Shown here: positions 4,945 to 17,141 of the stretch, one piece after another
How positions within the stretch are numbered: position 1 is the first letter of the stretch
Layout: each line of letters opens with the position of its first letter
IMG/VR virus record: IMGVR_UViG_3300017757_000046
Location: 1-36,575 of that record
Source of the DNA: a virus
DNA length: 36,575 nt
Reading direction: 5' to 3' (one strand)
Program-made: the position numbers and the translations under genes
Notes under the pieces: generated by a model
Seen by the model: the letters and a program-made list of their open reading frames with translations, nothing else
Database searches by the model: none
Told to the model about the DNA's origin: nothing

Positions 4945-5336
4945 AAGGTACAATTATTAAAATTTTTCCGACGAGGAAAATATCAGACAAATTTCAATTA
5001 AGAGAATTTGTAATCAAAACAGATGATAAATACCCGCAAGAAATTTTGCTACAAACTTCTCAGGATAGGTGCGTTTTGCTTGATGTATTGGCAGAGGGTG
5101 AGCAAATTCAGGCGTTTATCAATGTTCGTGGGAGATCATGGACAAATCCCCAGGGTGAGGTTAAATATTTCAATACCTTAGAAGTTTGGAAAATAAGCAA
5201 TGAATCTGCTCAAGATTTTACCTCGTATGATCAAGGGGTTGCCCCTCGTAAAAAAATGGGCAATATTGAAGCAAATTTCATGGAGGATGCTATTAATCAA
5301 ATGATGCCCGACGACGACGACGGATTACCATTTTAA
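4935..5336 (+). CDS. Single-strand DNA-binding-like protein (DUF3127, OB-fold)
   Basis: 133 residues. The N-terminal about 90 residues fit the DUF3127 OB-fold family common in Bacteroidota (MDIKGTIIKIFPTRKISDKF, FINVRGRSW, KYFNTLEVWKI). A flexible segment leads to an acidic tail ending DDDDGLPF, like the tip of bacterial SSB that docks partner enzymes. It probably protects ssDNA for the Sak3/exonuclease pair and the replication fork. It overlaps the exonuclease gene by 10 nt. Confidence 0.8.
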   Translation: MDIKGTIIKIFPTRKISDKFQLREFVIKTDDKYPQEILLQTSQDRCVLLDVLAEGEQIQAFINVRGRSWTNPQGEVKYFNTLEVWKISNESAQDFTSYDQGVAPRKKMGNIEANFMEDAINQMMPDDDDGLPF

Positions 5337-5348
5337 AATTCTAAAATT

Positions 5349-5573
5349 ATGAAAAAGAAAGAGATCAAGCCGATTGCCAAAGAGCAATTAAAAAATCTAA
5401 CAAAAGATTGCATTATGTTAATAAATGATTATATTGTTGAAAATGATATATCTGTTCACGCTTTTGCTAAAAAATGTAAAGTGCACCCGAATCAATTATA
5501 TCTTTTTTTAAATGCTGATCGTGGGTTGAATCTGACGACCATGCAGAAAATAGCAGACGTAATTTCAAAGTAG
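5349..5573 (+). CDS. Small helix-turn-helix DNA-binding protein
   Basis: 74 residues. Residues 33-72 (VHAFAKKCKVHPNQLYLFL, then LTTMQKIADVI) form a Cro/C1-type HTH. The N-terminal 30 residues are a basic helix. It is the last gene of the recombination unit and lies between that unit and the terminator and promoter at 5588-5676. It is therefore a candidate ligand of the palindromic promoter boxes, but this is inference only. It lacks the C-terminal oligomerisation domain of a CI repressor, so a Cro-like switch protein is more likely than a lysogeny repressor. Confidence 0.7.
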   Translation: MKKKEIKPIAKEQLKNLTKDCIMLINDYIVENDISVHAFAKKCKVHPNQLYLFLNADRGLNLTTMQKIADVISK

Positions 5574-5587
5574 GTTTTAGTTTTTTA

Positions 5588-5614
5588 GGGGTGGTTTTAG
5601 GATCACCCTTTTTT
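5588..5614 (+). terminator. Intrinsic terminator after the recombination operon
   Basis: Stem GGGTG (5589-5593) with CACCC (5604-5608), a 10-nt loop, and six T. It starts 14 nt after the stop of the HTH gene and precedes promoter B. Confidence 0.65.
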
Positions 5615-5630
5615 ACCATTTATTACGAAT

Positions 5631-5676
5631 ATAAATTAAATTTATGTAGGAAAATCCCTTTATTTTTCGTATATTA
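5631..5676 (+). promoter_or_regulatory. Phage promoter-like element, copy B
   Basis: Perfect 15-nt palindrome ATAAATTAAATTTAT (5631-5645), then GTAGG, then after a 22-nt gap CGTATATTA (5668-5676). The start codon at 5682 is 6 nt after TATATT, which suggests a leaderless transcript. Confidence 0.72.
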
Positions 5677-5681
5677 TATAT

Positions 5682-6017
5682 ATGGAAAAAAACATAACAA
5701 AATCAGGATTGGTGATCATAGATCGATCACCATTGAGGAATTCAGAAGGAGTTACCTCAAGAATTACTTATTATAAATCAGATTGTGGTCGTAAATTCAA
5801 AATACGCTATGACATGAGCAATGGTACGCCCATGGGTTTTAATTATAAAAAATCTGCTTCAGAATTCTACGATGGTAAATGGCATCATATCGACGAAATC
5901 AAAAATTTAAGAATGACAAAGCATTGTAGCAATTATTATGATCATGAAGGAGCATACGCAGAAATGCTCGAGTTCTTCAGATTAATGTCAGATCGAATCG
6001 TAAATTTTTACTTATAA
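5682..6017 (+). CDS. Hypothetical protein behind promoter B
   Basis: 111 residues, mixed alpha/beta in appearance, with an aromatic and His-rich C-terminal half (YDGKWHHIDE, HCSNYYDHEGAYAEML). No family recognised. The ATG sits immediately after the promoter box. Codons 2-7 carry the AAACATAACAAA run that elsewhere lies upstream of start codons. A perfect 7-bp hairpin (GGTGATC / GATCACC, 5711-5731) falls 29 nt into the gene. First gene of a three-gene unit closed by the terminator at 6749-6794. Confidence 0.65.
   Translation: MEKNITKSGLVIIDRSPLRNSEGVTSRITYYKSDCGRKFKIRYDMSNGTPMGFNYKKSASEFYDGKWHHIDEIKNLRMTKHCSNYYDHEGAYAEMLEFFRLMSDRIVNFYL
5711..5731 (+). other. Inverted repeat at the 5' end of the promoter B transcript
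   Basis: GGTGATC and GATCACC flank a 7-nt loop ATAGATC, a perfect 7-bp stem starting about 29 nt from the predicted transcript start. It could be an RNA hairpin or an operator; coding constraint alone does not require it. Confidence 0.35.
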
Positions 6018-6021
6018 GATC

Positions 6022-6321
6022 ATGAGAGCAAATAAAATAGATATAACGAGAGGTAGAATTGTTCAATTATTCAATTATGCGGGCAAAAGACGATTTGACA
6101 ATATTATGAGCATTTATGTAGATCACCCCGAATTACGAATCAATATCAATAAAATGATTTATTTGTATGATAAAAAAATACATGATCCTTACGAAAGGAT
6201 GAAATTTAGTGATCGGTTAAGCAATAAAGGTTTTTATAGATATTCGCCAGATAATGTCCATAAATATTTTCGGGATTTTATCGAAGTAATGACTGAAGCA
6301 GAAAATTTAAAATTAATATAA
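6022..6321 (+). CDS. Hypothetical basic protein
   Basis: 99 residues, basic (many Arg, Lys and Tyr), probably helical, beginning MRANKIDITRGRIVQLF. I recognise no domain. The 4-nt gap from the previous gene puts it in the promoter B unit. The charge would allow nucleic-acid binding, but no motif shows this. Confidence 0.6.
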   Translation: MRANKIDITRGRIVQLFNYAGKRRFDNIMSIYVDHPELRININKMIYLYDKKIHDPYERMKFSDRLSNKGFYRYSPDNVHKYFRDFIEVMTEAENLKLI

Positions 6322-6339
6322 ATCTAAAACATAAAAAAA

Positions 6340-6678
6340 ATGAAAAATTTTAAAAATTTAAATCAATATGAATATTTAGGATTAGTTTCTTTATTAAAAA
6401 AGGCTTATCCATTTATTGAAGAAATGACTTGCGGGACTTGTTATAATGGGCTAAAAGAAATTCAAAATACAGAAACCTTAAATGCTCCTAATTATCAATA
6501 CTCATCACTTGGTGCATTTGGTCTTAGCGAGGGGCTTGACGTAATTCTTCAATTCTATAATGAAGACGAAGACGAATTCAAATTGTTTTATATTACCTTT
6601 CGTGATCTTAAAGATTGGGAGGTTCAAGACGGTGAGGAATTTAGGCAATTTTTAAAAGAATACGAGCAAATTGCATAA
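6340..6678 (+). CDS. Hypothetical protein with a CxxC motif
   Basis: 112 residues, acidic towards the C-terminus. The only notable motif is C-G-T-C near residue 31 (EEMTCGTCYNGLKE), too isolated to call a zinc site. A central beta-rich segment (VILQFYNEDEDEFKLFYITF) suggests a small alpha/beta fold. Last gene before the hairpin terminator at 6749-6794, so it ends the promoter B unit. Function unknown. Confidence 0.6.
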   Translation: MKNFKNLNQYEYLGLVSLLKKAYPFIEEMTCGTCYNGLKEIQNTETLNAPNYQYSSLGAFGLSEGLDVILQFYNEDEDEFKLFYITFRDLKDWEVQDGEEFRQFLKEYEQIA

Positions 6679-6748
6679 AATAAATTTATTAAAATAATGA
6701 TTCAGAAAGCATTTTTTACTATATTAGTATTGTTATGTTTTAGGAAGG

Positions 6749-6794
6749 AGAGGGGAAAATCTGCTCTGTAATTGGTTAAAACCCCTCTTTTTTT
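6749..6794 (+). terminator. Terminator-like hairpin before the DNA-modification operon
   Basis: A 7-bp stem AGAGGGG (6749-6755) with CCCCTCT (6782-6788), a 26-nt loop, and a run of seven T. It separates the promoter B unit from the genes beginning at 6825. The unusually long loop and an upstream TATGTTTT (6734-6741) leave room for a regulated leader. I found no known riboswitch pattern. Confidence 0.5.
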
Positions 6795-6824
6795 AATTCA
6801 TAGCTCAGCACCAAAAGATAAAAA

Positions 6825-7067
6825 ATGAGCAAAAAAAAATCTGAAGAAAATAGCAAATACGATTTGCTTACAAAGATAATGAGTTATGCCGTTATCTTTT
6901 TTATGTTTATAATATTCGTAGTTGATAGGGCATTACATATCATTTTACCTCATAAAGAGCATGACAAATTTACTTCATGGGCAAAAGATAAAAACAATGT
7001 CAAATTTGCATTTGCAAGATTAATTATTTTTACGATCCCAATTTCAATATTTAAAATATTCTTTTAG
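6825..7067 (+). CDS. Small membrane protein, two predicted membrane segments
   Basis: 80 residues. A charged N-terminus (KKKSEENSKYD) is followed by a hydrophobic segment at about 20-42 (IMSYAVIFFMFIIFVV), a soluble linker, and a second hydrophobic segment at about 63-80 ending at the stop codon. No family recognised. It heads the modification-packaging unit, 2 nt before the ParB-like gene. A role in modification is not implied by its sequence; a host-envelope effect such as superinfection exclusion is only a possibility. Confidence 0.55.
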   Translation: MSKKKSEENSKYDLLTKIMSYAVIFFMFIIFVVDRALHIILPHKEHDKFTSWAKDKNNVKFAFARLIIFTIPISIFKIFF

Positions 7068-7068
7068 T

Positions 7069-7623
7069 ATGAGTAAAAAAATAAAAACCATTTTTTTAGA
7101 TATTGAAGAAATCAAGCTAAACGAAAATAACCCGAGATTCATACGCGACGAAAAACTTGAAAAGCTAATTAAAAGCGTAAAAGAATTTCCTCAAATGTTA
7201 GAGATAAGACCGATTGTAGTAAATAAGGAAAAAATGATCCTGGGTGGCAACATGAGGTATCGAGCATGCGTTGAAGCGGGAATGCAAAAATTACCCGTTA
7301 TTATTGCTGATGAATTTACAGATGAACAAGAACTTGAATTCTTAATCAAGGATAATATTAGCGGTGGTGAATGGGATATCCAAATCTTACAAGATCAATT
7401 TGATCCTAATCAGCTTGAAATCTGGGGATTGGATCAAGAGATTAACGCAATGGAGCCGATCAATTTGGATGAATTTTTCAATGAAGACGATCAAGATCAA
7501 GCAGAGCCCACCAATAAAATTATTTTAGAGTATACCGAGGAAGAGCACGAAAAGGTATTAAACGCATTGGCTGAAATTGGGGGTACGCCAGAACAAGCAA
7601 TATGGAAATTATTAGAATTATAA
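7069..7623 (+). CDS. ParB-like protein (ParB/sulfiredoxin fold), possible DpdA partner
   Basis: 184 residues. The N-terminal about 110 residues match the ParB N-terminal domain: NENNPRFIRDEKLEKLIKSV (18-37), RPIVV, and the box GGNMRYRA (59-66) equivalent to the GxxRxxA nucleotide-binding box. The C-terminal third is acidic (DEFFNEDDQDQAE) and has no ParB HTH, so plasmid partitioning is unlikely. It lies 4 nt upstream of the DpdA-like gene. From memory, the bacterial dpd system needs a ParB/Srx-type protein (DpdB) alongside DpdA; sharing that role is inference. In other phages similar ParB domains accompany DNA methylases, but none is here. Confidence 0.75.
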   Translation: MSKKIKTIFLDIEEIKLNENNPRFIRDEKLEKLIKSVKEFPQMLEIRPIVVNKEKMILGGNMRYRACVEAGMQKLPVIIADEFTDEQELEFLIKDNISGGEWDIQILQDQFDPNQLEIWGLDQEINAMEPINLDEFFNEDDQDQAEPTNKIILEYTEEEHEKVLNALAEIGGTPEQAIWKLLEL

Positions 7624-7627
7624 AAAA

Positions 7628-8362
7628 ATGAATATATATTTAGCGGGAACTCAAGGGGATAAAGGTGGATTAACGACCGCTTATTCTGATTTGTTTCTGC
7701 TTGAGTCTTTCCATTATTTAAATGATTCAAATTTGGAAGTTTATAAAAATCATAAATTCCTTTTGGATTCAGGGGCTTTTACATTCATGAATAAAAAATC
7801 AGGAAATGTCGATTGGGATCAATATATCACAACTTATGCCCAATTTATTAAAAAGCATGATATTGATCTTTTTTTTGAATTAGATATTGACGTGATCGTG
7901 GGTATCAAAGAGGTTGAAAGATTACGGGAAAAGCTCGAAAAAATTTCAGGAAAAAAATGCATACCCGTTTGGCATAAAAGCAGAGGTTTGGCTTATTGGC
8001 AGAAAATGATCAAGGATTATGATTACGTTGCGATTGGAGGAATAGTCACAAGAGAGATCAAACGCAAAGATCATAGAATTTTTACAGAATTGCTCAGAAT
8101 GGCAAAAGAAAATAATTGCAAAGTTCATGGGCTTGGTTATACAAATTTAAAAGGCTTAAAAAAATATCCTTTTTATTCGGTAGATTCGACAAGTTGGATC
8201 AGCGGGCAAAAATTCCTTAATATAATGCAATATGTAGGTAATGGTAATTTCATCACTCATAGACCAAAAGAAAATCAAAGGGGGATCAATCCCAAGCGTA
8301 GACTTGAATACAATTTCCATGAGTGGGTTAAATTCCAAAAATTTGCAAAAAATAATTTATAA
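7628..8362 (+). CDS. DpdA-like DNA 7-deazaguanine transglycosylase (TGT superfamily)
   Basis: 244 residues, much shorter than tRNA-guanine transglycosylases (about 370). TGT-type TIM-barrel landmarks appear in order: LLDSGAF (45-51; Asp47 at the general-base position), AIGGIV (135-140), HGLGYT (167-172) and SVDSTSW (184-190; Asp186 at the nucleophile position). The Cys-Cys-Cys-His zinc site of tRNA TGTs is absent. These features fit phage DpdA enzymes, which swap guanine in DNA for a 7-deazaguanine. Adjacent queC, queD, queE and folE supply preQ0, and no queF is present, so preQ0 is the predicted DNA base. A tRNA-acting enzyme is less likely given size and context. Confidence 0.78.
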   Translation: MNIYLAGTQGDKGGLTTAYSDLFLLESFHYLNDSNLEVYKNHKFLLDSGAFTFMNKKSGNVDWDQYITTYAQFIKKHDIDLFFELDIDVIVGIKEVERLREKLEKISGKKCIPVWHKSRGLAYWQKMIKDYDYVAIGGIVTREIKRKDHRIFTELLRMAKENNCKVHGLGYTNLKGLKKYPFYSVDSTSWISGQKFLNIMQYVGNGNFITHRPKENQRGINPKRRLEYNFHEWVKFQKFAKNNL

Positions 8363-8377
8363 CTAAATTTATTAATC

Positions 8378-9043
8378 ATGAGTTCAGCAGTAGTTTTATT
8401 ATCAGGTGGTCAAGATTCAACCACATGCCTATATTGGGCAAAAAAGAATTTTAAAGAGGTGATTGCATTGGGATTTGATTACGGGCAAATGCATGCCCAG
8501 GAATTAGAGCAAGCAAAAAAGATTGCAAAAGATGCCAAGGTTGAATACAAAATTTTAAATATAAAAGGCTTATTAGCAAAAAGCAGTTTGATTGAGCATT
8601 CAGATCATAATGCTAAAAGTTATTTGAATGATGAATTGCCCGCATCATTTACGGCGGGGCGTAATATTCTTTTTTTATCGGTAGCGGGTAGTTTCGCAAG
8701 CGAAAAGGGTATCAATGATTTGGTTACGGGGGTATGTCAAACAGATTACTCAGGTTACCCAGATTGCCGACGAACAACGATCGACGCAATGCAAAATACC
8801 TTATCATTAGGTTATGGATCGGGTGATTTTAGAATACACACCCCTTTAATGTATATTAATAAAGCGGAAACCTGGAAATTAGCAAAAGAATTGGATTGTC
8901 TTGATATTATTATAAAAGATACATTAACCGATTATGACGGAAATATGACTCCAAATGAATGGGGTTTTGGATCAGCAACGAATCCCGCAAGTGAATTAAG
9001 AATGAAAGGTTTTTATCAAGCAAAAGAATTGCAATGGATATGA
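8378..9043 (+). CDS. queC: QueC-like 7-cyano-7-deazaguanine synthase lacking the zinc cysteines
   Basis: 221 residues. QueC converts 7-carboxy-7-deazaguanine to preQ0 using ATP and ammonia. The PP-loop SGGQDST is at 9-15. FDYGQMHAQE, AGRNILFLS, TGVCQTDYSGYPDCR and TPLMYINKAETWKLA all match the family. The C-terminal zinc module, which in E. coli QueC reads LTCYNG followed by CGHCAAC, is replaced here by LTDYDG and a Cys-free segment (D185 at the first ligand; no Cys after 174). The enzyme may fold without zinc or belong to a known zinc-free subgroup. The next gene starts 10 nt before its end. Confidence 0.92.
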   Translation: MSSAVVLLSGGQDSTTCLYWAKKNFKEVIALGFDYGQMHAQELEQAKKIAKDAKVEYKILNIKGLLAKSSLIEHSDHNAKSYLNDELPASFTAGRNILFLSVAGSFASEKGINDLVTGVCQTDYSGYPDCRRTTIDAMQNTLSLGYGSGDFRIHTPLMYINKAETWKLAKELDCLDIIIKDTLTDYDGNMTPNEWGFGSATNPASELRMKGFYQAKELQWI

Positions 9044-9450
9044 AAATCGTAAAAGAATATCATTTTTACGCGGGGCATAGGAATAAAAATGCTGATGAAA
9101 AATGCGGGCGTATTCATGGTCATACTTATTATGTAACTTGTTTCTTCAGGGGAGGGCAAATAAATGAAAAAAGCGGAATCACTTTATTATTTGGTGATAT
9201 TGATAAAAAGGTTGAGCCTATTATTAAAGAATACGATCATTATTTTTTGCTATATGACAAAGATCCTCTTTGTGATATTTTAGAATTTGCAAAAGAGCCT
9301 TTTATTAAATTACCCTTTGAAACTTCCGCTGAAAATATGGCATTGTGGTTATTTACGAGAATAGAAAATGAAACAAAATTACCTATTGAAAAAATTGAAT
9401 TAAGAGAAACAAAAACAAGTAAAGTGATTTATGAAAAATCTAAAAGTTAG
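9034..9450 (+). CDS. queD: 6-carboxy-5,6,7,8-tetrahydropterin synthase QueD
   Basis: 138 residues, the usual family length. QueD turns dihydroneopterin triphosphate into 6-carboxytetrahydropterin. Zinc ligands are visible as His15 in FYAGHR and the two His of IHGH (28-31), with catalytic Cys24 in CGRIHGH, FGDIDKKV, and the substrate-binding Glu in ELRETKTS near the C-terminus. It overlaps queC by 10 nt and queE by 20 nt, indicating coupled translation in the preQ0 operon. Confidence 0.92.
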   Translation: MDMKIVKEYHFYAGHRNKNADEKCGRIHGHTYYVTCFFRGGQINEKSGITLLFGDIDKKVEPIIKEYDHYFLLYDKDPLCDILEFAKEPFIKLPFETSAENMALWLFTRIENETKLPIEKIELRETKTSKVIYEKSKS

Positions 9451-10036
9451 CGAGATATTTTACTCTTTGCAAGGTGAGGGAGCCAGGGTAGGCACCTCGA
9501 CGGTTTTTATTCGATTAATGGGTTGCACAGCAAAAAATGCATGCTTTAAATCAGGCATTGTTTGTGATACCGAATTTGAAAGCGGGGAGGAAAGAACGAT
9601 TGAAGAAATTGAAAAATGGTTAATAAAAAATGCGCCAGATTGTAAAGAGATCACCTGGACGGGTGGTGAACCTCTTGATCAATTAGATGAAGAAATTGTA
9701 GCCCATTTTAAAAGCAAAGGCTTTTATCAAGCAATCGAAACGAGCGGATTAAGAAAACCCGTAAAAGGGCTTGATTTTATTTGCGTAAGCCCAAAGGTCG
9801 CAGAGCATATTGTTAAAAGAAATTTTCCCGACGGGGTATCAGAATTGCGTTATGTTAGGCATAAAGGGCAAAGCGTTCCGAACCCGATTGTAAAGGCTAA
9901 CCATTATTGGGTTTCCCCTCATTCAGACGGGTTTACGATTAATGGCGAAAATTTAAGGCATTGCATTAATCTTTGCAAAGAATATCCTCAATGGAAATTA
10001 TCAATTCAAAACCATAAAGTATGGAACGTATTATAA
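9431..10036 (+). CDS. queE: Radical SAM 7-carboxy-7-deazaguanine synthase QueE
   Basis: 201 residues. QueE makes 7-carboxy-7-deazaguanine from 6-carboxytetrahydropterin with a [4Fe-4S] cluster and SAM. Visible landmarks are EIFYSLQGEGARVG at the N-terminus, FIRLMGC, CDTEF, the SAM-binding ITWTGGEPLDQL near 73-84, and ETSG. Cluster cysteines are probably Cys32, Cys38 and Cys45 (CX5CX6C), a spacing different from CX3CX2C or CX14CX2C of other QueE groups. I recall Bacteroidota proteins with the same C...C...CDTEFESG arrangement, so it is probably a lineage variant. It overlaps its neighbours by 20 and 16 nt. Confidence 0.9.
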   Translation: MKNLKVSEIFYSLQGEGARVGTSTVFIRLMGCTAKNACFKSGIVCDTEFESGEERTIEEIEKWLIKNAPDCKEITWTGGEPLDQLDEEIVAHFKSKGFYQAIETSGLRKPVKGLDFICVSPKVAEHIVKRNFPDGVSELRYVRHKGQSVPNPIVKANHYWVSPHSDGFTINGENLRHCINLCKEYPQWKLSIQNHKVWNVL

Positions 10037-10419
10037 CTTGGGATGAAATTAAAGAAGTAGCAAAAAAATTAATTGAATCAAATATCATAAAAAAAGACAC
10101 TAAGGTTTGGGGCGTGCCCAGGGGTGGGCAATATCTGATGCCATTTTTTGAACCCGTTAATGATCCAAAAGATGCTGAAATTATTATTGATGACTTAATT
10201 GATAGCGGTTCGACATTAAAGCAATACCAAGATTTATACCCAGATAAAAAATTTGTATCTTTTTTCAAAAAAAATAATAATGACAAAAGGTGGTATATTT
10301 TTCCATGGGAGCAAAAAAACGAACCTTTAGAGGATAATATAGCCAGAATTTGCCAATTTTATGATTTGAAAATCGTAAAAACTTTTGATGAATTAATTAC
10401 GGCTTATGAAAACAGATAG
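10021..10419 (+). CDS. Minimal type I phosphoribosyltransferase (XGPRT-like)
   Basis: 132 residues, short for the family. The PRPP-binding loop is clear ([13 protein letters not shown], 54-66). [11 protein letters not shown] (29-39) fits the upstream pyrophosphate loop and WYIFPWEQ (91-98) resembles the base-binding end of xanthine/guanine phosphoribosyltransferases. Only about 18 residues lie between the two loops, so the usual hood is largely missing. It is embedded by overlaps between queE and folE. A reasonable role is converting guanine, released by the DpdA-like enzyme, to GMP for reuse as GTP, the FolE substrate. That role is inference; action on a deazaguanine base is an alternative. 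Confidence 0.72.
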
Positions 10420-11056
10420 CAATCTTGGAAAGAAAATAAAAGAATATTTAATAAAGCAAGGGATTGAAACGCCCATGACGGGAGATTTTGATCAGGAAGA
10501 AAAAAGAAAGGAAAGAATTTCGTCTTTATTTAAAGAGATTATGGAAGAACTCAATCTTGATCTAAAAGATGATAGTTTGAGAGGCACGCCAGATCGAGTA
10601 GCAAAAATGTATGTAAATGAAATGTTTTATGGATTAAACTATAATAATTTTCCTAAATGCACTGCCGTAGATAATAAGATGAAATACGATGAAATGGTAA
10701 CGGTTGATGAAATTAATCTTGCAAGCTCATGCGAGCATCACTTCGTGATAATTGACGGGCACGCAACGGTTTCGTATATTCCGAAAGATAAAGTAATCGG
10801 TCTTTCTAAAATTAATCGAGTGGTAGACTTTTTTGCTAAAAGACCTCAAATACAAGAAAGATTAACAGAGCAAATTTTTTATGCATTGTCTTATATTTTA
10901 GATTCAAAAGATATTGCGGTAAAAATAAAAGCGGTACATTATTGCGTGAAAGCCAGAGGGGTAAAAGATTTGACGAGCAATACGACGACAACAAAATTAG
11001 GTGGCGTATTTAAAAACCCTGAAGTTCGAAACGAATTTTTAAATTTGTCAAAATAA
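10406..11056 (+). CDS. folE: GTP cyclohydrolase I (FolE type)
   Basis: 216 residues. FolE opens GTP to dihydroneopterin triphosphate, the first step towards preQ0. Zinc ligands and active-site motifs are present: Cys109 and His112 in SSCEHHF, the second cysteine Cys180 in HYCVKARGV (with catalytic His178), [17 protein letters not shown] (61-77), [20 protein letters not shown], and the C-terminal [13 protein letters not shown]. It is last in the preQ0 cluster, overlaps the phosphoribosyltransferase gene by 14 nt, and is followed one base later by the small terminase gene. Modification and packaging genes therefore appear to be one transcript. Confidence 0.94.
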
Positions 11057-11057
11057 A

Positions 11058-11450
11058 ATGGGAGATCAAACAAAAACAGATATTCATAAAAAAGCAATGA
11101 TTGAAGCATTGGAAAAATCACTTGGGATCGTAACCTCAGCTTGCAAGACCGTTGGGATCGTAAGATCAACTCATTACAAATGGTATGCTGAAGACGAACA
11201 ATACAAAAAAGAGGTAGATAGCATTAAGGACTTAGTTTTAGATTTTGCCGAAAGCCAATTACATAAGCAAATCAGCGAGGGCAACCCGACGTCAACGATC
11301 TTTTTTTTAAAGACAAAAGGAAAAGAGAGGGGATATGTCGAAAAGAAAGAATTGGAAATTATAAAAGATGATTTGGATCTTTCAGGAATAAGCGACGAGG
11401 ATCTGCGTAATTTTTTAGATAATCAAAATACCCAAAATGACGAAGAATGA
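11058..11450 (+). CDS. Terminase small subunit-like protein
   Basis: 130 residues. An N-terminal HTH-like segment (AMIEALEKSLGIVTSACKTV, then STHYKWYAEDEQYK) is followed by a helical oligomerisation region with TSTIFFLKTKGKERGYVEK, a pattern I associate with phage small terminases. The C-terminus is acidic (DNQNTQNDEE). It should recognise the packaging site on phage DNA and regulate the large subunit. It lies directly upstream of the large terminase and overlaps it by 14 nt, which supports the call. Confidence 0.82.
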   Translation: MGDQTKTDIHKKAMIEALEKSLGIVTSACKTVGIVRSTHYKWYAEDEQYKKEVDSIKDLVLDFAESQLHKQISEGNPTSTIFFLKTKGKERGYVEKKELEIIKDDLDLSGISDEDLRNFLDNQNTQNDEE

Positions 11451-12795
11451 AAAGATTAAAAAACTTTTTTTCTTTGAACTTTTAAGACGCGACTTTTGGG
11501 AGTTCTGTCTTTTTTATGATCCTGAATTTTTTACGAAAAGAATCTTTTTAAAAAAAATTGCTGATGCATTTCAAAAGATCGAAAAAAAGGAAATCAATTC
11601 CTTATCAGTATCAATGCCACCCCGAGCGGGAAAATCATATATTACAAGTCTTTTTTCAGCCTGGGTTTTAGGTAGAAATCCAAAAGAAAGCGTTATGCGA
11701 AATACTTGCACCGCCACCCTATATTTAAAATTTAGCTATGATGTAAGAAATATATTGAAAAATAATAAATTCCAAAAGGTCTTCCCAAAGGTATGGCTAT
11801 CTGAAACAAAAGCAAATTTATTAGGTTGGAATACGAATCAATCAAAACAAGTAGGTTATTTTGGTGCGGGGGTTGGGGGTACGATTATCGGATTTGGAGC
11901 AACAAAATTGGCTATTACAGATGATCTTTACAGAGGGGTTGAAGACGCATTGAGTGATACCACCAACGAAAAAATATTATTATGGAAAGAGGCAACCCAC
12001 GATTCGAGATTGGAAAGAAATTGCTCAAAAATTGATATTGGCACCCGTTGGTCTAAAAATGATGTAATTGGCATTAATGTAGGTCAAGACAGATACGATT
12101 TAAGCATTGAGGTATCGGCATTAGATGAAAATGACGAATCCTTTTGTGATGAAGTCATGAGCACTGAGCAATATCATGATATACGAAAAAGAATCAATCC
12201 AGATATTTGGTTGGCAGAATATATGCAAGAGCCCGTTGATATGAAAGGCAGATTATTTAATAATTTGAAAAAAATATCAATAAAAGAATTCAAGGAAATT
12301 GAATCAAAGATCGAGGGCTATGTTGGATATATTGATGTAGCAGATCAAGGAAAAGACTTTACGGCTTTAGCAATCGGCGGGGTTCTCGATCAAGAAATTT
12401 TTATCGTTGATTATCTTTTCACAAGAGATAATACAGATGTTTCCATGCCCCTTTGTGCTAATCTGCTGAATAAATGGAAAGTGAAATATTGCAGAGTAGA
12501 ATCGAATAGCATGGGAGCTATGTTTAGCCGTCAATTAAATAAAAATACAAATGCCCAGATATTGCAAGTTCATAATACCAAAAATAAGATTACAAGAATC
12601 ATAATGGAAAGTGCTTTTGTATTTAGCAATTTTAATTTCGTTGATAATAATACCCAGGATTTTTACCAATTCATTCAAAACGTAGAGGGCTTTAGCAAAG
12701 AGGGGAAAAATAAGAATGACGACGCGCCCGATTGTTTGGCGGGCTTATCAATGTTGATAAAAGGGCTTTTCCCTCATAACTTCAAAAATTATTAA
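11437..12795 (+). CDS. Terminase large subunit
   Basis: 452 residues, a normal TerL length. The ATPase domain has a Walker A MPPRAGKSY (60-68), Walker B LAITDD (158-163), and IDIGTRW (199-205) as the coupling motif. The RNase H-like nuclease domain shows GYIDVADQGKDFTALAIGG (Asp300, Asp303) and the C-terminal acidic site NDDAPDCLAGL (Asp432). It powers DNA packaging through the portal. The portal gene, usually next, instead lies 3.2 kb away on the opposite strand. Confidence 0.95.
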   Translation: MTKNEKIKKLFFFELLRRDFWEFCLFYDPEFFTKRIFLKKIADAFQKIEKKEINSLSVSMPPRAGKSYITSLFSAWVLGRNPKESVMRNTCTATLYLKFSYDVRNILKNNKFQKVFPKVWLSETKANLLGWNTNQSKQVGYFGAGVGGTIIGFGATKLAITDDLYRGVEDALSDTTNEKILLWKEATHDSRLERNCSKIDIGTRWSKNDVIGINVGQDRYDLSIEVSALDENDESFCDEVMSTEQYHDIRKRINPDIWLAEYMQEPVDMKGRLFNNLKKISIKEFKEIESKIEGYVGYIDVADQGKDFTALAIGGVLDQEIFIVDYLFTRDNTDVSMPLCANLLNKWKVKYCRVESNSMGAMFSRQLNKNTNAQILQVHNTKNKITRIIMESAFVFSNFNFVDNNTQDFYQFIQNVEGFSKEGKNKNDDAPDCLAGLSMLIKGLFPHNFKNY

Positions 12796-14470: not shown

Positions 14471-14905
14471 ATGGATAAATCAATCGAATATTACCTCAAA
14501 GCGAGGAAAAGTAAAAAGAAATTCCCGACGAATAGAATATCAAGCATGGAAGACGCATACGGGTATGCAAAGCAATTTTATAGCGACGATCTGCTCATTT
14601 ATGAATCTGTATTTATAATGATGCTCGATCGTGGCAATAAGGTAAAAGCATGGGCTAAAATTAGCCAGGGTGGAATAATAGGCACCGTCGTTGATGTCAG
14701 GATCATTTGCAAGTATGCTATTGATTCATTGGCAAGCGGTATTATTATGATTCATAATCACCCGACGGGTAGCCTGAAGCCGAGCAACGCAGATATTTCG
14801 GTAACGAGAAAATTAAAAGATGCATTGGCGCTTTTTGAAATTGATCTTTTGGATCATTTGATAATAACAGATCAAGGGTATAAAAGCATAATTAATCAAA
14901 TTTAA
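14471..14905 (+). CDS. RadC-like JAB/MPN-domain protein
   Basis: 144 residues covering just the RadC catalytic domain; the N-terminal HhH part of cellular RadC is absent. The metal-binding motif is intact: MIHNHPTGSLKPSNAD with His95, His97 and Asp108, followed by LLDHLIITDQGYKS. JAB folds are metal isopeptidases or hydrolases; the activity of RadC proteins is unsettled. Phages, plasmids and islands often carry them among accessory genes, consistent with its place between terminase and portal. The upstream context AAAACATAACAAAAA-ATG is typical for this genome. Confidence 0.85.
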   Translation: MDKSIEYYLKARKSKKKFPTNRISSMEDAYGYAKQFYSDDLLIYESVFIMMLDRGNKVKAWAKISQGGIIGTVVDVRIICKYAIDSLASGIIMIHNHPTGSLKPSNADISVTRKLKDALALFEIDLLDHLIITDQGYKSIINQI

Positions 14906-15788: not shown

Positions 15789-15953
15789 ATGATTGGAAGA
15801 AAAAGGCACCCGCATAAAAAAGTAAATTTAAGGATTGAAGACATATTGCGATTGATTAAATTTTACGATAATTTAAAATCCCAGGGTGAAGATCGATTGC
15901 ATTGTGATCGAGTATTACGCCAATTAAAAAAGCAAATTTATACTAAATCATAA
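15789..15953 (+). CDS. Small hypothetical protein (54 aa), converging on the portal gene
   Basis: Reads MIGRKRHPHKKVNLRIED... and ends KKQIYTKS; basic and helical. No family recognised. Its TAA and the portal TGA on the other strand overlap within a 6-nt stretch (15948-15953), a tight tail-to-tail junction with no room for a separate terminator. Confidence 0.52.
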   Translation: MIGRKRHPHKKVNLRIEDILRLIKFYDNLKSQGEDRLHCDRVLRQLKKQIYTKS

Positions 15954-17141
15954 TCCAAGCAAGGATCTTTTTTCGTCTTCGTCAAGATCAATACCCGCGT
16001 TTATTATTTTATTTACTGCGTCGGCTCTTAGATTCATTGCTGAGGCTTCGGCATTCTTATCAGATTGTAAAACGGGTATATGATTAAAATCTGCCTTTAC
16101 ATAAAGACCCTCTTTTATTAAACCTAATTGATGAGAAATAGTAGAATACATTTGATTTGTTTCAGGTATGATTGTATCCTGATAGCTCATGCGCATCCCC
16201 TCTTTTACATTCGTAAATGTAGCACCTTTGCCCTGGCTAAATAAATAATACGAAAGCCCGTATGCGTCAATAATAGCCATTTTGTCCTCGGTTAATTCAT
16301 CAAAAAGCATTAAATCTTTTGTCGGGTAACTCATTGGCGTCCAATTAACATCTGCTTCAGTAAGCACCAATTTATCTTTGCTACGTCTTAACCAATCCCT
16401 TTGTATTTCTTCTCTTTCTTCAGCCGTCATTGGTAGAGATCCTCCAAGATCAGACTTTTTGCTTGATAAGATCCCAATAGCACCCATATTTTCCAAAATT
16501 ACATTTCGCTTATTATATTGAGCCATGATATTGCTTAATGGAAATTTTAAAGTATCAATTCTATTAATCGGGTTTAATAAATTAATACCGTCAGGGGTAT
16601 TTAAATAGATCATGTCCTCAACAGAAATATTTTCCTTTTTCTTGGTATCATACCAAAATTCAAATCTTTCAATTAATCCGTCGACCTCGATTTGATCAAG
16701 ATATTTACCCGTTCCAACAATCTTAATTTGATTACTTGGCAATGGTACCAAAAGATTTCGTAAATCAAATGCCCGTTTAGGACAATATGCAAAAGAATTA
16801 TTAAAAAGTCCATCATTGACGGCGAGGCTATAAATTACATCACTCCAAGATTGAGTAGGATTAGGTTGATTGATTAGATCCTGAAACCAATGCTTTTCGA
16901 CTTCGTTTCCGTCAAGATCACAAAGTTTCGGTATTCCGCTTGCTATCATTAATGCCCGTTTATTGATGACGGTTCGTAATTCAGGTATTGTAATGTATAA
17001 TTCGTATGGTTTATCAGTATCGATCCAGGTCGGATCTTTTTTTCCCCAGAATTGGTTGGTATTTCTTGATAACATTCTGAGTAAGTTATCATTTTTTCCG
17101 CTTGACCAACCAAAAATATTAGTCCAAAAATTATTTTTCAT
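15948..17141 (-). CDS. HK97-family portal protein, encoded on the opposite strand
   Basis: 397 residues, normal for the HK97-type portal that forms the dodecameric DNA gate of the head. Recognisable stretches are WIDTDKPYELYITIPELRTVINKRA near the N-terminus, SNIMAQYNKRNVILENMGAIGIL around 205-230, the DWLRRSKDKLVLTEADV region, and DAYGLSYYLFSQGKGATFTNVKEGMR. It is the only minus-strand gene here. Terminase lies to its left and protease-capsid to its right, both on the plus strand, so the usual terminase-portal-protease order is kept but the gene is flipped. It needs its own promoter, presumably in the 101-nt divergent gap at 17142-17242, unless it is read from elsewhere. The frame is intact with no sign of decay. 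Confidence 0.92.
   Translation of the reverse strand: MKNNFWTNIFGWSSGKNDNLLRMLSRNTNQFWGKKDPTWIDTDKPYELYITIPELRTVINKRALMIASGIPKLCDLDGNEVEKHWFQDLINQPNPTQSWSDVIYSLAVNDGLFNNSFAYCPKRAFDLRNLLVPLPSNQIKIVGTGKYLDQIEVDGLIERFEFWYDTKKKENISVEDMIYLNTPDGINLLNPINRIDTLKFPLSNIMAQYNKRNVILENMGAIGILSSKKSDLGGSLPMTAEEREEIQRDWLRRSKDKLVLTEADVNWTPMSYPTKDLMLFDELTEDKMAIIDAYGLSYYLFSQGKGATFTNVKEGMRMSYQDTIIPETNQMYSTISHQLGLIKEGLYVKADFNHIPVLQSDKNAEASAMNLRADAVNKIINAGIDLDEDEKRSLLGL

Follow-up and report, generated by a model that had tools for sequence, protein, structure and literature searches.

What does the run of seven genes beside the terminase genes of the virus record IMGVR_UViG_3300017757_000046 do, and which base would it place in the DNA of the phage? 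The window analysed here is the whole IMG/VR record (36,575 bases, 32% GC), which is classed as linear and may be a fragment. On its + strand, positions 7069-11056 carry the genes ParB-DpdA-QueC-QueD-QueE-PRT-FolE (PRT, phosphoribosyltransferase; Table 1), spaced successively by +4, +15, -10, -20, -16 and -14 bases (gaps positive, overlaps negative). The original prediction, made from the sequence alone, had read seven overlapping or adjacent genes here as a DpdA-type operon for preQ0 modification of DNA, with a complete set of enzymes leading from guanosine triphosphate (GTP) to preQ0 and no QueF. It rightly presented preQ0 in the DNA of this phage as an inference, and it named the PRT without offering a role for it. 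All seven open reading frames (ORFs) were found in place, and gene content, gene order, fold and relatives support that reading. We consider it highly probable that the operon makes preQ0 and that DpdA inserts it into phage DNA as 2′-deoxy-preQ0 (dPreQ0), a degree of confidence that covers this DNA-modification core only. An operon of the dPreQ0 type is of a known kind; the PRT, and with it the PRT-FolE module, is its least expected part and the one that deserves specialist attention.

The predicted pathway is complete, with FolE, QueD, QueE and QueC all recognised through Pfam, PHROGs and NCBIfam; QueD and QueE score under the curated NCBIfam cut-offs, yet these are their best matches. Separately, the radical S-adenosylmethionine cysteines of QueE are spaced Cx5Cx6C, as they are in 52 of 119 QueE-like ORFs of related loci, while another 38 of the 119 have the spacing Cx3Cx18C; we know of no description of either. 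The published QueE spacing is CX14CX2C (PMC4389238). A QueF search of the record returned FolE itself as the sole match, below the cut-off, so that no QueF was seen in the record, and a search for PF02592, the preQ0 transporter family, gave no match in the window. The window QueC has no glutamine amidotransferase (GAT) domain, and no amidotransferase was seen in the record, ArcS having had no search of its own. The final base varies among relatives, cited here by L numbers: QueF lies directly after dpdA in the sister operons L099 and L131 and adjoins dpdA in L150 and L101, sister operon L080 has a GAT-QueC, and the window has neither. In the phages Rosebush and CAjan, dPreQ0 takes a share of about 28% and 32% of G, respectively, and CAjan without dpdA has zero dPreQ0 (PMC6884629). 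Because the gene order of phage CRB2 matches that of the window minus the PRT, and the same gene set in Rosebush and CAjan yields dPreQ0, dPreQ0 modification is the best reading, and by analogy dPreQ0 is most likely the base in the DNA of this phage.

The enzyme that would carry out the exchange required a fold search, since a PDB sequence search with DpdA alone gave nothing meaningful. The product matches the phage queuine tRNA-ribosyltransferase family of PHROGs; among the 192 phage records that it also matches, identity in the top 40 is 26-39%. Its AlphaFold2 model, with 35 window and viral sequences as input, reached a predicted local distance difference test (pLDDT) of 91.9 and a predicted template modelling score (pTM) of 0.90. 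The best 50 rows of a VIA structure comparison are all tRNA-guanine transglycosylases (TGTs; Z up to 16.4, root-mean-square deviation (rmsd) 3.3, 238 residues aligned), and TGTs also head the Foldseek results, in which thiamin phosphate synthases are listed as well. Whether this product belongs to the TGT superfamily had been set beforehand as a test of the prediction, and it lies inside, with TGTs as its top structural matches. The zinc site of tRNA-TGTs is missing, as had been proposed: the CxCxxC motif visible in E. coli Tgt is absent. A further claim was that both TGT aspartates are kept. Asp47 and Asp186 are invariant among 37 aligned relatives and are also present in the DpdA of CAjan, CRB2, Pseudomonas phage NP1 and Vibrio phage VpKK5, and an alignment shows the motif DSGAF to be common to the window, CAjan, CRB2 and NP1. 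When a profile of the DpdA family was aligned with a single E. coli Tgt, the match was weak; it puts Asp47 on the aspartate of the TGT motif DSGGF and Asp186 two residues off the TGT nucleophile, of which Asp186 is a candidate equivalent. By sequence, the short DpdA is kin to known phage DpdA proteins, and DNA base exchange is its predicted activity. In L045 (5152-6747) and L149, three tandem dpdA-like ORFs, two of them short pieces, lie upstream of queC and are possibly a duplicated and decayed dpdA.

Upstream of dpdA, the ParB-like protein conserves G60, R63, A66 and N96. Of 70 loci retrieved from IMG/VR by means of the window DpdA, 63 have its gene directly upstream of dpdA; the seven exceptions comprise four contig-edge cuts, one intervening QueC, one case of tandem dpdA pieces and one unexplained locus (L043). 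Over 136 loci, ParB adjoins dpdA in 112, and the remainder are mostly cut contigs or carry the longer DpdA type (NP1, VpKK5 and others). The ParB-like domain also matches phage DNA methyltransferase families, and no DpdB model matched the window protein. A homologue of DpdB was already suggested by the authors of the CRB2 study (PMC6392294), and a DpdB-like partner of DpdA is the probable role here. The short DpdA and its nearly always adjacent ParB gene form a minimal pair for studying what a ParB-like protein does in DNA base exchange.

The identity of the PRT emerges from several comparisons. Its Pfam phosphoribosyltransferase match (E 0.001) is below the cut-off, and a PDB sequence search returns xanthine-guanine phosphoribosyltransferase (XGPRT). 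XGPRTs are also the best Foldseek and VIA rows for its model (pLDDT 86; Z 10.3, rmsd 2.8, 99 residues aligned, 29% identity). In an alignment of 112 homologues, in which a few contigs are counted twice, the equivalents of D88, D89, D92, G94, K115, W134 and P138 (E. coli Gpt numbering) are identical in all 112 and that of R37 is kept in 109. Since the protein scores 35.5 bits on the NCBIfam xanthine PRT model, whose cut-off is 138, we class the protein as XGPRT-like and not as a family member; on sequence and model together, it is a compact XGPRT-like protein.

Among 76 viral loci fetched with the PRT domain alone, 75 have the domain fused to the N-terminus of FolE. Of these PRT loci, 44 extend 4 kb or more upstream, and 43 of the 44 contain dpdA. 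The window PRT also finds matches in 33 records of the phages collection, and every annotated one has the match under a GTP cyclohydrolase feature; Pfam and NCBIfam scans left the PRT domain unlabelled in the fusions tested. The gene is separate in the window, L078, L044, L047 and L060, and with the NP1 domain as query, stand-alone copies also come up in Cellulophaga phages, phiST among them. A scan of genome contigs with the PRT gave four loci, two of which, from metagenome-assembled genomes, are fused to FolE beside QueD. In these bacterial contigs (L156 and L157, each at 5151-6843), two QueD genes precede the PRT-FolE fusion and no dpdA lies within the examined piece; they could be prophage or cellular. 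Literature searches that combined the PRT with DpdA, or with a FolE fusion and 7-deazaguanine, turned up no description, and a mention in other papers is possible.

The separate PRT of the window appears to be a derived state. In a tree, the window FolE groups with those of L078 and E. coli (100/100), apart from the fused FolEs, a placement that long branches oblige us to treat with care. The C-terminal tail of the PRT resembles the N-terminal FolE helix of fused homologues and aligns with the FolE start (EDNFTRILQYLGED), which we read as the trace of a fusion that came apart when an E. coli-like folE took the place of the original folE. The same split state occurs in L078, whose PRT is 71% identical to that of the window; nonsynonymous divergence (dN) between the two is 0.19 and synonymous divergence (dS) 2.1, so that purifying selection acts on the separate PRT.

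How might these parts work together? FolE, QueD, QueE and QueC would take GTP to preQ0, and the short DpdA would swap guanine in DNA for preQ0, probably with help from the nucleotide-binding ParB-like protein encoded next to it; the resulting dPreQ0 would mask restriction sites in phage DNA. It is well established that 7-deazaguanines in their DNA shield phages from restriction. Each exchange in the TGT reaction frees one guanine. The guanine ejected by DpdA would be joined with phosphoribosyl pyrophosphate (PRPP) by the XGPRT-like PRT, giving guanosine monophosphate (GMP), and host kinases would return GMP to GTP, the substrate of FolE for the next preQ0. We hold the PRT step from guanine to GMP to be roughly an even call, and lean neither way on a loop dedicated to guanine recycling in DpdA phages through an XGPRT domain that is usually fused to FolE. 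If true, the conserved PRT-FolE fusion adds a missing step, the fate of the displaced guanine: modification would cost the nucleotide pool little, and free guanine would not build up and compete with preQ0 at DpdA.

Several observations weigh against this scheme. The record is possibly incomplete, and QueF or an amidotransferase could lie elsewhere in the phage. The DpdA of phage 9g alone, without a phage ParB, puts some dPreQ0 into E. coli DNA (PMC6884629). About 30 residues from the middle of XGPRT are missing in the PRT, so its activity cannot be assumed, and a profile search of the sequence pieces examined found no PRT in CAjan, CP220, Dp-1 or CRB2. Since CAjan and CRB2 are without it, the PRT is dispensable for modification in general.

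Could the operon instead raise preQ0 or queuosine for host tRNA, with the DpdA-like enzyme acting on tRNA and not on DNA? Queuosine in tRNA draws on the four Que genes too, and the PHROGs name of the family points the same way. The enzyme, however, has no zinc motif of the TGT kind, its invariant residues recur in the CAjan DpdA, on which modification of the DNA depends, and a ParB-like gene accompanies it; with no QueF seen in the record either, we hold this reading to be highly improbable. A base finished to dPreQ1, dG+ or dADG, by a gene outside the record or by a host enzyme, is unlikely. Sister operons with QueF or GAT-QueC give that idea some footing, as does a linear and possibly incomplete record; in the sisters, however, these genes belong to the operon itself, and in the window just 15 bases separate dpdA from queC.

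The PRT invites alternatives of its own. A PyrR-like sensor of PRPP or nucleotides that controls FolE, in place of a salvage enzyme, would suit a compact domain that has no XGPRT middle region and is joined to FolE, where the pathway begins; PyrR folds match the model too, at lower Z. The counterparts of the catalytic Asp92 and of Lys115 and Trp134 in the purine site are invariant, although sensing alone would not call for them, and the PRT stands as a separate gene in the window and four other loci and alone in phiST; we regard the sensor as unlikely. It is also conceivable, 7-deazaguanines being close analogues of guanine that an XGPRT-like site could accept, that the substrate of the PRT is preQ0 or a related 7-deazaguanine base, turned into a ribotide for storage or for incorporation at the nucleotide level. 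That the domain occurs almost only alongside DpdA (43/44), which uses the free base, and is fused to an enzyme that uses GTP and not to QueC, makes this quite unlikely. Guanine stays our candidate substrate, at the even weight given above.

A single base separates the end of folE from the terminase genes, small subunit and then large. On the 5′ side of the operon lie genes for replication initiation, a DnaB-like helicase, a NinG-like endonuclease, a Sak-like annealing protein, an exonuclease and a single-stranded DNA-binding protein; with these replication and recombination genes upstream and portal and head genes downstream of the operon and terminase, the virus is a tailed phage. The portal-like gene runs on the other strand from the neighbouring packaging and head genes. 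An identical inversion is found in L078 across the stretch in common with the window, and an assembly error is unlikely because L078 is arranged likewise over the shared part. A RadC-like JAB-domain gene sits between the terminase and portal genes.

Table 1. Genes of the operon and of its downstream flank, with the matches on which each assignment draws
Feature	Coordinates	Strand	Evidence and remarks
ParB/Srx-like protein, 184 aa, GxxRxxA nucleotide-binding motif at residues 60-66	7069..7623	+	Pfam ParB_N 2e-10; next to dpdA
Short DpdA, predicted DNA-guanine transglycosylase, 244 aa, without TGT zinc site	7628..8362	+	phrog_887 5e-60; TGT fold
QueC, preQ0 synthase, without GAT domain	8378..9043	+	Pfam QueC 2.4e-62; TIGR00364 over equivalog cut-off
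QueD, 6-carboxytetrahydropterin synthase	9034..9450	+	PTPS 2.6e-25; phrog_2389; TIGR03367 E 2.5e-19, below cut-off
QueE	9431..10036	+	TIGR04508 7e-34, below cut-off; phrog_2076 2e-22; cysteines
Compact XGPRT-like protein, 132 aa	10021..10419	+	XGPRT by PDB sequence match and fold
FolE, GTP cyclohydrolase I, E. coli-like subtype	10406..11056	+	NCBIfam equivalog 4.6e-99, over cut-off
Terminase small subunit, start of packaging module	11058..11450	+	phrog_309 7e-7; flank, outside pathway
Terminase large subunit	11437..12795	+	phrog_38 9e-75; flank, outside pathway
RadC-like JAB-domain gene	14471..14905		Pfam 7e-34
Portal-like gene	15948..17141	-	phrog_2662 2e-26

Set against known systems, the operon shares a TGT-fold DpdA and a partner of the ParB superfamily with the bacterial Dpd restriction system (DpdA, DpdB, DpdC and others). 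Direct membership in that system was rejected, since the window DpdA reaches 24 bits on the bacterial DpdA model, whose cut-off is 200, and the ParB-like protein gave no DpdB match. With E. coli Gpt the PRT shares its fold and all tested active-site residues; it differs in having about 28% identity, in lacking the middle region and in sitting in a DNA-modification operon. An XGPRT-like domain is likewise found in NP1, VpKK5 and Quinobequin-P09, but there it is fused to FolE and annotated only as GTP cyclohydrolase. NP1 and VpKK5 have the Que set and DpdA as in the window, whereas phages of their type have a longer DpdA and no adjacent ParB, and NP1 has a GAT-QueC where the window QueC has no GAT. 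Closest in plan are the group 2 (preQ0) DpdA phages, Mycobacterium phage Rosebush/CRB2 and Escherichia phage CAjan (PMC6884629, PMC6392294), which, like the window, have the full FolE-QueD-QueE-QueC set with DpdA; they have neither amidotransferase nor QueF, and none was seen in the possibly incomplete window record. The CRB2 order, ParB-DpdA-QueC-QueD-QueE-FolE-TerS-TerL, is that of the window minus the PRT. The window departs from them in a DpdA that is shorter than, and 23-24% identical to, those of CRB2 and CAjan, and in an E. coli-like FolE and an extra XGPRT-like gene.

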